Below, piece after piece: positions 1 to 31,137 of a DNA stretch of 42,352 nucleotides. The position numbers and the translations under genes were made by a program. The DNA comes from Pseudomonadota bacterium (GTDB lineage Bacteria > Pseudomonadota > Alphaproteobacteria > Acetobacterales > Acetobacteraceae). The stretch covers positions 1 to 42,352 of the forward strand of contig JAJZCG010000012.1 in assembly GCA_021846225.1 (NCBI GenBank), given 5' to 3'. Position 1 is the first letter of the stretch, and each line of letters starts with the position of its first letter. Below the pieces are notes generated by a model that was given only the letters and a program-made list of their open reading frames with translations, made no database searches and was not told where the DNA came from.

Positions 1-107
1 TCAGCAAGCTCAAGCAGTTCAGACGGGTGGCAACACGCTTCGAGAAAACCGCACAAAACTACCGGGCCGTCGTCACACTCGCCGCAATCGTCCTATGGCT
101 AAGGTAA
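1..107 (+). mobile_element. IS5-family transposase, C-terminal fragment (runs off left edge)
   Basis: Frame +3 reads SKLKQFRRVATRFEKTAQNYRAVVTLAAIVLWLR*, the typical C-terminus of IS5-family (IS427/IS1031-like) DDE transposases. Stop TAA at 105-107, followed by a short tail and CTAG at 121-124. Confidence 0.85.
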
Positions 108-124
108 GTGTCCACACCTCCTAG

Positions 125-160
125 AGCCTGATCGTTTGAGGTTGGCGCGCGCTAGCCGGG
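125..160 (+). repeat. REP-like repeat, copy 1 (left half conserved: GAGCCTGATCGTTTGAGGTTG)
   Basis: CTAGAGCCTGATCGTTTGAGGTTG (121-144) matches CTAGAGTCTGATCGTTTGAGGTTG at 22943-22966 with 1 mismatch. The right half diverges into the tautomerase 3' end. Confidence 0.75.
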
Positions 161-20842: not shown

Positions 20843-20987
20843 GGGCGTGACATCTGGCCGCGCCAAAGCAGGACACTGTGCCAAAATGGAACATGGGTTA
20901 TATTCACTTGCCATCGCCCCGCGCGGGGCCTAGCTAAACGATCCAAGAAAGACCCGATAATAATTCTTCTGGGTGAGGAAATGCCGG

Positions 20988-22946
20988 TCCATGGAGACAT
21001 TTGCCGCGACTGCCAATACGGGACTTATGCCACGCCAGCCAGCCAGGCTCGCGACTGATCCGGCCGATATAAGCCGCTCCTGGCAGCGATGCCGGCAGGC
21101 GGGGCTGGTTCCGGAACTCACGCGTGTCGACGGGCCGCATATGGGCCAGGTGCAATTGCGCGCCGCCGCCGACCGCCGCGCCACGCTGATCGCGCAGGCG
21201 CGCCCGGTCATAGACTATATCTATAGTCAAATCCGTGATTCCGGCTGTGTCATGCTGCTGTCCGACGAAAACGGCTTCCTGCTGGAATCCGCGGGGGACA
21301 CGGATTTTTGCACCCGCGCGGCGCAGGTGGCGCTGCAACCCGGCGCCTGCTGGGCCGAGGATACGCGCGGCACCAATGCCGTGGGGACGGCGCTGATCGA
21401 GGGCCGGCCGATTGTGGTGAACGGCACGGAACATTACCTGCGGCACAATAATTTTCTCGCCTGCGCGGCGGCGCCGCTGGTCGAGCCGGGCGGGCGGCTG
21501 CTCGGCGCGATCGATATTTCCTGCGACGCGCGGCGTTACCATCCGCATACGTTCGGCCTCGTGCGCGTCGCGGCGCAGATGATCGAGAACCGCATTTTCG
21601 AACTCACCTTCGCCAGCCAGATGAAGCTGCGCTTTCATCTGAGCAGCGCGTGCCTCGGCAGCGTGATGGAAGGGACGATCGCGCTGAGCGAGGATGGGCG
21701 CATCATCGGCGCGAACCGTACCGGCTTTCATCTGCTCGGCCTGGCGCCGGCCGATATCGGCCAGATTGGCGTTGCGGAGACGCTGGGCATTGGCCTGCGC
21801 GAGCTGCTGGACCTGGAGCGCCACGCCCAGGGCCGCCCCGTGGCGCTGCACCGGCGCGGAAGCGATACGATGTTCATCATGGTGGAGCATGTGCGGCTGG
21901 CGCAATTCGTGCCGGGGAACCAGCCCGCGGTTGCGCCCAAAACCACCGTGGGGGATGCCTTGAGCGCGCTCGATACTGGAGATGCGCGCGTGCACACAGC
22001 GATTGAGCAGGCGCGGCGTGTGTTGGACCGCAAGGTGCCGCTTCTGCTGCAAGGCGAGACCGGCGCCGGAAAGGACGTGTTTGCCCGCGCCATCCACACC
22101 GCCAGCGGGCGCGCGCACAAGCCCTTCGTGGCGGTGAACTGCGCGGCGCTGCCGGAAAGCCTCATCGAATCCGAACTGTTCGGGCACGCGCCCGGCTCCT
22201 TCACGGGCGCCAGGCGCGAGGGGGCGCTCGGGCGCATCCGCGAGGCCCATGGGGGCACGCTGTTTCTCGACGAGATCGGCGATATGCCGCTGCACATGCA
22301 GACGCGGCTGTTGCGCGTGCTGGAGGATGGCTATGTGACCCCCATCGGCGGCAAGCCGGTGCCGGTGGATTTTCTACTGATCAGCGCCACGCATTGCGAC
22401 CTGAAGGCGCGCGTCGGCACGCAGGAATTCCGCGCCGATTTATACTACCGCCTGAACGGGCTGACGATCTCCCTGCCCCCGGCCCGCGAACGCACGGACC
22501 TACCCGCGTTGATCGAGCGGATTCTGGCCCGCGAGGCGCTGGAGCGCGGCGAGGGGCTGACGTTGCGGCTGACCCCCGAACTGGCCGAAGCGTTTTCCCG
22601 CTACACCTGGCCTGGCAATCTGCGCCAGCTCGCGGGGATGCTGCGGACCGCCTGCCTGATGCTCGATGCCGGCGAATGTGAGCTGGGCGTGGAGCATCTG
22701 AGCGAGGAGGCGCAGGCGGAACTCAGCCGCAAGCATGTGGCGCCGCAGCCGCCCGCGCGCCCGGCAACGTTGCGGGCACGCGCCGATGCGCTGATCGGCA
22801 ATGCCGTGGCGGAGACCGGTGGCAACCTTGCCGCCGCGGCGCGCAAGCTCGGCATCAGCCGCAACACGCTCTACCGGCGGCTTGCCGCGGGCACCGTGGT
22901 ATCGGAGAGCGCCAAACCCCTGCAAGCGCGCAAACTGAACAGCTAG
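20988..22946 (+). CDS. Sigma-54-dependent Fis-family transcriptional activator (AcoR-like)
   Basis: ORF 20973..22946. GAF-type N-terminus; Walker A LLLQGETGAGKDVFARAIH; GSFTGA loop (HAPGSFTGARREG); Walker B GGTLFLDEIGD; C-terminal HTH NLAAAARKLGISRNTLYRRL. Confidence 0.94.
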   Translation, partial: SMETFAATANTGLMPRQPARLATDPADISRSWQRCRQAGLVPELTRVDGPHMGQVQLRAAADRRATLIAQARPVIDYIYSQIRDSGCVMLLSDENGFLLESAGDTDFCTRAAQVALQPGACWAEDTRGTNAVGTALIEGRPIVVNGTEHYLRHNNFLACAAAPLVEPGGRLLGAIDISCDARRYHPHTFGLVRVAAQMIENRIFELTFASQMKLRFHLSSACLGSVMEGTIALSEDGRIIGANRTGFHLLGLAPADIGQIGVAETLGIGLRELLDLERHAQGRPVALHRRGSDTMFIMVEHVRLAQFVPGNQPAVAPKTTVGDALSALDTGDARVHTAIEQARRVLDRKVPLLLQGETGAGKDVFARAIHTASGRAHKPFVAVNCAALPESLIESELFGHAPGSFTGARREGALGRIREAHGGTLFLDEIGDMPLHMQTRLLRVLEDGYVTPIGGKPVPVDFLLISATHCDLKARVGTQEFRADLYYRLNGLTISLPPARERTDLPALIERILAREALERGEGLTLRLTPELAEAFSRYTWPGNLRQLAGMLRTACLMLDAGECELGVEHLSEEAQAELSRKHVAPQPPARPATLRARADALIGNAVAETGGNLAAAARKLGISRNTLYRRLAAGTVVSESAKPLQARKLNS

Positions 22947-23003
22947 AGTCTGATCGTTTGAGGTTGACGCGCGTCAGCGTGGCAACCGAAAGCGCGAATC
23001 AGC
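22946..23003. repeat. REP-like imperfect palindrome, copy 2 (58 bp)
   Basis: GAGTCTGATCGTTTGAGGTTGACGCGCGTCAGCGTGGCAACCGAAAGCGCGAATCAGC. Self-complementary: CTGAT/ATCAG, TTT/AAA, GGTTG/CAACC, CGC/GCG. Confidence 0.88.
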
Positions 23004-23014
23004 CTCTTATCAAA

Positions 23015-23072
23015 GAGTCTGGTCGTTTGAGGTTGACGCGCGCCAGCGCGGCAACCGAAAGCGTGAATCAGC
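23015..23072. repeat. REP-like imperfect palindrome, copy 3 (58 bp, tandem with copy 2)
   Basis: GAGTCTGGTCGTTTGAGGTTGACGCGCGCCAGCGCGGCAACCGAAAGCGTGAATCAGC; 54/58 identical to copy 2, period 69 bp. Confidence 0.88.
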
Positions 23073-23096
23073 AGGGGCGCGATACCGGCTTGCCGC

Positions 23097-23912
23097 CTAT
23101 AAAAAATCCGGCCCTTTGATCTGACGGCCGTGCCGGACGGCGGCCACCTCGCCCTCGCGCAGCGGCTGCCAGGCTTCTGCCGTCAGCGGAACGCTGGCGA
23201 ACAACACCAGCTCCTGGGTGGCATGTTCATCACCGATTCTGACGCCGGAGGCTGCGGCCGCGCCATCGCCCATGCCGCAGGCACGCGTGAGCTGGAAAAG
23301 TCCTGGCGGGGCAATCGCGCCATCGTGCTGTATGCGCCGGTGCCCATGCGCGAACAGCACGTCACCGTCGGCATAGATGAAATTCGCCGGGCCGAGCGCG
23401 CGTAACTGCGCCGCGAAAGCCTGAACGACCGCCATGCGGCTGGCAACGGAGGGGAGCGCACGCCCGGCCCAGAGCGGGGAGAGCGCCTCCAGCAGAATAC
23501 AGAAGGCTATCTCGGAATCAGTCTCCCCGATTGGCTGAAAGCGAGTCCAGCGCCCGGCCATGCGCTGGCTGATTGTTGCGAGATCGCCATTATGCGCGAA
23601 AACATGCGCCCGCCCGCCCAGTTCGCGCATGAAGGGCTGGGTGTTGCGCAAGGAGACAGCGCCCTGGGTGGCGCGCCGGATGTGGGAGAGGACCAAGCCG
23701 GTGCGCTGCCGGCGCTGCTCGATGAAAGACACCCAATCACTCTGCCCGGCCGGCTCGGGCTCACGGTACAGCCGGACATCCGCACCATCATAGAAAGCCA
23801 GCCCCCAGCCATCGAGCATCCTTCCCCCGAAACCGCCGTGCCGGGAAAAAATGTCCAACGAAAAATTGACATTGGCCGGCATTTTGCTCGACAGCGCGAA
23901 CAACTCGCACAT
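23097..23912 (-). CDS. Class II glutamine amidotransferase (YafJ family)
   Basis: 271 aa; N-terminal Cys after Met (MCELFALSSKMPANVNFSLDIFSRHGG), LVLSHIRRATQGAVSLRNTQPF, HVFAHNGDL. Confidence 0.9.
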   Translation of the reverse strand: MCELFALSSKMPANVNFSLDIFSRHGGFGGRMLDGWGLAFYDGADVRLYREPEPAGQSDWVSFIEQRRQRTGLVLSHIRRATQGAVSLRNTQPFMRELGGRAHVFAHNGDLATISQRMAGRWTRFQPIGETDSEIAFCILLEALSPLWAGRALPSVASRMAVVQAFAAQLRALGPANFIYADGDVLFAHGHRRIQHDGAIAPPGLFQLTRACGMGDGAAAASGVRIGDEHATQELVLFASVPLTAEAWQPLREGEVAAVRHGRQIKGPDFL

Positions 23913-31064: not shown

Positions 31065-31069
31065 ATCTG

Positions 31070-31106
31070 GCCGCTTGAGGTTGCCCCGCGCAAGCGGGGC
31101 GGCCTC
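31070..31106 (+). repeat. REP-like hairpin, copy 4, after fruA
   Basis: CCGCTTGAGGTTGCCCCGC-GCAA-GCGGGGCGGCCTC: conserved GYTTGAGGTTG head; 13-bp stem (two G-T wobbles in the RNA) with GCAA tetraloop. Confidence 0.75.
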
Positions 31107-31137
31107 GGGCTTGAAGCCCCCCCCTCTAACAACACCG

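Follow-up and report, generated by a model that had tools for sequence, protein, structure and literature searches.

A small hairpin element of Alphaproteobacteria with probable IS630-type termini, inserted at TA and often at stop codons

The two direct repeats that lie between a sigma-54 regulator gene and an amidotransferase gene in the window (the whole stretch of DNA analysed, 42,352 nucleotides) belong to a family that we read, with a probability of roughly 0.78, as non-autonomous, MITE-like mobile DNA of the Alphaproteobacteria with IS630-type termini. The basic form of the element is TA-GAGY-arm A-linker-arm B-TA, with a long, imperfectly paired hairpin as each arm, and it inserts at a TA dinucleotide and duplicates it. 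A transposase of the IS630 family (Tc1/mariner superfamily) is likely to move it in trans, as judged from the sequence of the ends. In the genome of the window, whose genus we take from sequences identical to named loci to be Acidocella, the unit made of arm A and the linker then multiplies in tandem after insertion, to arrays of 1-5 units of 64-69 bp, probably because the AGAGY direct repeats on either side of each hairpin slip or recombine with one another.

At the window locus, the two copies (22945-23003 and 23014-23072) are spaced by 69 bp and are identical at 55 of 59 positions (93%), with the 4 differences counted in the earlier note. Both form bulged hairpins of about 20 pairs as RNA of the + strand, at -24.9 and -26.2 kcal/mol (z -3.6 and -3.9; equalled by 0/200 shuffles), and both the wobble pairing of CTGGT with ATCAG and the bettered CGCGC/GCGCG stem are present as first described. 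The folds of the - strand are far weaker (-16.2 and -16.8, z -1.8 and -1.2), because several of the pairs are G-U. The copy consists of two units of what we call type 1, at 22946-23014 including the linker and at 23015-23072. The arm A hairpin of unit 1 (22946-23006, + strand) has the layout GAG-Y-CTGAT-CGTTT-GA-GGTTG-A-CGCGC loop GCGTG-G-CAACC-GA-AAGCG-CGA-ATCAG-C-CTC; it is defined by its fold, by covariation and by a match to our covariance model R1 at 22943-23010 (84.2 bits). It is followed on the same strand by the inter-unit linker TTATCAAA (23007-23014), recognised by its sequence and a count of an IHF pattern, and by the arm A hairpin of unit 2 (23015-23072; R1 match 23012-23079, 62.4 bits). 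The family sequence ends after 23072, and compared with complete arrays the window copy has no arm B.

The upstream gene encodes a GAF/sigma-54 activator/Fis-HTH regulator (20973-22946, + strand; Pfam Sigma54_activat and orthologue comparison), and the downstream gene a class-II glutamine amidotransferase (23097-23912, - strand; Pfam GATase_4). The gap between the regulator's end at 22946 and the amidotransferase's end at 23097 is convergent, as the earlier note had it, but the placement of the pair inside this gap needs correction, since the TAG stop of the regulator (22944-22946) and the left end of the element share bases. The TA of that stop (22944-22945, + strand) is the insertion target, as indicated by the end of the reading frame at 22946 and by comparison with orthologues, including an empty site in the relative G011.

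The head pattern of the element occurs 4 times in the whole window, against 0.09 expected. A second copy, with a truncated left end (TA GAGCCTGATCGTTTGAGGTTGGCGCGCG...), lies at 122-157 on the + strand. It adjoins a sequence in window 1-128 that reads as the C-terminus of an IS transposase (KLKQFRRVATRFEKTARNYRAVVTLAAIVLWLR, then a stop), for which Pfam gave no match; this IS-like sequence ends in CTAG and is joined directly to the truncated copy, and from the sequence the IS appears to have inserted into the copy's terminal TA. At 31066-31115, 3' of another gene's stop, CTGGCCGCTTGAGGTTGCCCCGCGCAAGCGGGGC combines a head-like sequence with a strong hairpin under the R1 threshold, and is possibly a decayed copy.

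Searched at the DNA level, the window's genome (2.69 Mb, 97.8% complete) contained the repeat at 67 places. Forty-six units went into the covariance model R1, which at a cut-off of E<0.01 gave 146 matches, a minimum since no more than 150 candidates were scored; they group into 74 arrays. The arrays comprise 34 single units, 19 doubles, 12 triples, 7 of four units and 2 of five. The suggestion that the window pair represents a high-copy, intergenic, hairpin-forming repeat family was thus borne out by the whole-genome covariance-model search that had been proposed for it, which returned dozens of intergenic copies with covarying stems; a scan of the window against Rfam gave no family above its gathering score.

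A complete type-1 element has the structure TA-GAGY-[arm A-linker]n-arm B-TA, with n = 1-5 and units of 64-69 bp. Arm A carries a conserved bulge, GATCG opposite CGTGAATC. The hairpin of arm B is not that of arm A, and its outer stem likewise covaries: a left GATC pairs with a right GATC in 9/9 cases, and GAGC mostly pairs with GAGC. A second subtype, type 2, has 64-nt units, an apex of the form GGTTCGCTC..GAGCGAGCC and a short arm B. The whole element is about 125-400 bp long, too small to hold a transposase gene. Several irregular copies were also seen. In three chimeras (G000 C9:2399, C99:13959 and C123:2656), an arm A unit runs straight into the inner half of arm B, which looks like the outcome of recombination between the arms; one unit (G000 C20:19279-19361) contains an internal 15-bp duplication (GTGGCAACCGAAAGC) that gives an 84-bp spacing. 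Beside an array in G011 (L214, C164, near 2000-2200) there are further palindromes, ATACCAGTCAGCCTTAAGGCTGACTGGTAT and a CCCGCCACCAAA..GGCGGGCTG form, which are apparently other small repeats.

The alignment of 46 units supports a stem of 25 pairs with 90.4% paired cells, in which 12 pairs are altered on both sides. Its covariation score was 0.238, compared to 0.116 for shuffled alignments (0/500) and at most 0.068 for controls with slid partners. Apart from one pair that is U-G in 40/46 units, there are 59 G-U against 27 A-C combinations, and this excess favours the + strand as the strand that folds, either as RNA or as single-stranded DNA. The covariation may partly reflect constraints of transposition instead of RNA function. 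The lower 3' arm carries, with hardly any variation across all arms, a GAATC (GANTC, the CcrM-type site; columns 54-58 of alignment A1) that faces GATC across the stem.

The mobility of the element follows from comparisons with the relatives G002 and G011. At C115:6854 the empty site GGCT-TA-AAACAA corresponds to the filled site GGCT-TA-[element]-TA-AAACAA, and three more precise empty sites with TA duplication were found (C16:18309, C74:919, C96:18321). G011 lacks the element at the site of the window copy (...CAGCTAG/CGC; CTGAACAGCTAG/CGCTAC), while at the same TA the window's genome holds a type-1 array and G009 a type-2 array. Such pairs of empty and filled orthologous sites indicate that the element moves and duplicates TA in doing so. 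At the window site the TAG stop has been rebuilt using the element's first G. In general, a TAA or TAG stop that receives the element at its TA becomes a TAG stop again and the gene is left unbroken, because the first base of the element is G. The TA of the upstream stop codon is the target in 29/47 intact arrays, whereas the TAs available in those gaps would predict 15.2 (0/20,000 simulations). At 64% GC, few TAs are to be expected within genes.

Type-1 arrays in one species and type-2 arrays in another occupy the same TA, of a stop codon or a gap, at C89:21071 and C89:39164 of G000, at L205 and L209, and at the window site compared with L267. Opposite orientations were seen at the orthologous sites C87:284/L212, C43:8791/L204 and C65:11543/L184, and the number of units varies at the orthologous sites C9 and C106:6853. 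On sequence grounds, the same sites seem to have been struck repeatedly or overwritten by recombination, and a swap of subtype at one site could be recombinational replacement instead of re-insertion.

The case for IS630 comes from the ends of the element. IS630 transposons in the carrier and sister genomes start with TA/GAGC or TA/GAGT. The closest is a two-ORF IS630 in the Acidocella genome G007 (DDE_3, E 6.5e-35), whose right end, TAGAGCTTGATTGGTTTAA, agrees with the type-2 element end, TAGAGCCTGATTGGTTTAA, at 18/19 positions; we infer from this agreement that the element is MITE-like and moved by IS630. In the stretches sampled from G000, G002 and G011, ends with 4 or fewer mismatches number 9, 7 and 8, against 0 in reversed controls. 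The left ends of type 1, the type in the window, match the same IS630 at 13-14/19 positions without gaps, and no IS630 with exact type-1 ends was found in the carrier and sister genomes. A DNA search of G007 itself detected no copies of the element. G007 has two copies of a two-ORF IS630 (L217 and L226, C7) with the DDE domain in a second frame, an arrangement suggesting programmed frameshifting.

The family extends well beyond Acidocella. Among named genomes, the exact pattern was found in Acidocella MAGs, Sphingomonas cavernae, Sphingomonas sp. LaA6.9, Sphingosinicella and a Brevundimonas MAG, and related copies occur in Sphingomonas, the family of the Brevundimonas MAG and some 15 further families of Alphaproteobacteria. 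R1 gave matches in 17 other genomes among 385 of the class, and in a sample of 299 genomes from the phylum every genome with a match belonged to that class. In lineages other than Acidocella, two similar arms usually stand as an inverted pair with the ends CTAGAG...CTCTAG. Among the papers searched with 12-mers of the motif, none had it in a relevant context, and those that matched were unrelated.

The closest known kind, as compared by description, is the Caulobacter CcrM-associated intergenic repeats, or CIR (Chen and Shapiro 2003, as described by Delihas 2007, PMC2229807, and in PMC10969869). CIR are about 110 bp long, with two arms and a linker, TA termini and GANTC; they are intergenic and occur in Caulobacter, Brucella and other Alphaproteobacteria (PMC2229807), and according to one review how they move had yet to be found. 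That our repeat is this described family in a new host is nearly an even question, and this reading overlaps and is compatible with an IS630-driven MITE. The element shares with CIR, by description, a length of about 110-140 bp, two hairpin arms with a linker, TA termini, GANTC, the intergenic position and a range within the Alphaproteobacteria that includes the family of the Brevundimonas MAG, in which 14/99 genomes carry it, one with 42 R1 matches. The GANTC of CIR is placed at the loop of one arm, whereas the nearly invariant one here is in the lower 3' arm; across lineages its placement varies, from the loop of arm B in Sphingomonas (GATTC) and the apical stems of the Brevundimonas-family copies to the lower 3' arm of arm A in Acidocella. 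The tandem arrays of arm A and the rebuilt stop codons of the Acidocella form are also absent from these descriptions of CIR (PMC2229807, PMC10969869).

Two other small elements deserve mention. The RUP of pneumococcus, for which IS630-Spn1 is the proposed mobiliser, is likewise non-autonomous, with TA ends, a target duplication and ends like those of a resident IS630, but it differs in sequence, host phylum and structure, and no tandem arm arrays are described for it (PMC2229807). The Correia/NEMIS elements of Neisseria share TA ends, long transcript hairpins and, in one form, an IHF motif, but have a single outer stem instead of two arms and a different sequence (PMC2229807). In our element the linker and the start of arm B, TATCAAAGAGTTA, fit the IHF consensus WATCAANNNNTTR (e.g. 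L038, about 2120-2140), and 31 of the 32 matches to this consensus in 315 kb lie inside arrays, which share descent. The window linker has this site in incomplete form; intact elements complete it with the following AGAGTTA. In other lineages 14/52 linkers are within one mismatch of the consensus, where about 1% would be expected; in the Brevundimonas family the number is 0/19.

A different kind of explanation would make the repeat a cis-acting structured RNA, a terminator or 3'-end stabiliser selected at gene ends, with its mobility incidental. We regard this as rather unlikely, although the position of the arrays speaks for it together with the stem covariation and the preference for G-U over A-C outside the almost invariant U-G pair. 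In 66/70 arrays the upstream gene leads into arm A; 44 arrays are convergent, 17 co-directional, 3 opposite and 1 divergent, with 20, 9, 5 and 1 in a replicate from G002/G011. Of 61 gaps that hold arrays 42 are convergent, compared to 8 of 124 other gaps, and by gap count 0/33 divergent gaps hold an array; these figures also speak for the mobile element. Since genes were called with a simple, home-made codon-usage finder and the sampled regions were chosen around arrays, these fractions are approximate. In tandem gaps the ratio of co-directional to opposite arrays is 17:3 in the own set (n=20) and 26:8 in a pooled set (n=34, p 0.003) that includes some cases orthologous to each other. A role of the hairpins in 3'-end structure would explain this bias. 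On the other side, the window gap shows no signature of an intrinsic terminator, orthologous sites are often empty or in opposite orientation, and TA targeting with purifying selection accounts for much of the position with no function at all. For the mobile element itself, a 3'-UTR role is plausible but unproven; hairpins once placed may perhaps keep convergent transcripts apart, or stabilise them, by forming structures at their 3' ends.

The earlier note had proposed a REP/BIME-like family moved by a RAYT (Y1, HUH) transposase, and the many intergenic bulged palindromes, their 3'-end position and the inverted pairs seen in many Alphaproteobacteria do recall REP, BIME and REPIN architecture (PMC3733652). 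This proposal now seems very improbable. A Pfam profile search for Y1_Tnp detected none in the window's 97.8% complete genome and none in seven further genomes that carry the repeat and were reached by way of loci from Sphingomonas, Brevundimonas and others, so that no Y1 gene flanked by the element was found in these genomes; two Y1 genes in other Acidocella (G011, G009) had no element within the fetched flanks. The TA target is duplicated at empty sites, and target duplication is not known from Y1 transposition. The arm is also long, about 60 nt with 25 pairs, while described REPs measure 20-40 bp, and it is without the GTAG/CGTC tag. The CGTC repeats have a stem of 8-9 bp with a tag tetranucleotide and are reported missing in Acetobacteraceae (PMC3733652); the 25-pair arm does not fit the GTAG/CGTC superfamilies, and the CGTC repeats differ in tag and distribution as well. 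Integron attC sites had been considered too and were dropped, since the GTTAGA...TCTAAC arms face the other way. Finally, that the copies are the ends of a single annotated IS, which the earlier note had named as the case against its family, or an assembly artefact is next to impossible: some do lie at contig ends beside IS sequence, as in window 1-128, but most are contig-internal and separate different genes, and this holds for several genomes and lineages.

No mover had been known for the two-armed, CIR-like repeats of Alphaproteobacteria; the ends and TA duplication described here point to IS630. The element also shows how a transposon can, by simple means, persist where genes are densely packed: stop codons offer the TA and the element rebuilds them. 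More tentatively, and with rather less than even odds, an element that exploits stop codons, is harmless at TAA/TAG and can be amplified into an array with an IHF-like linker may act as a portable 3'-end module, swapped by subtype across species. Orthologous stop codons that are empty in one species, and carry one subtype or the other in the next, offer a natural experiment on hairpin arrays and transcript ends.
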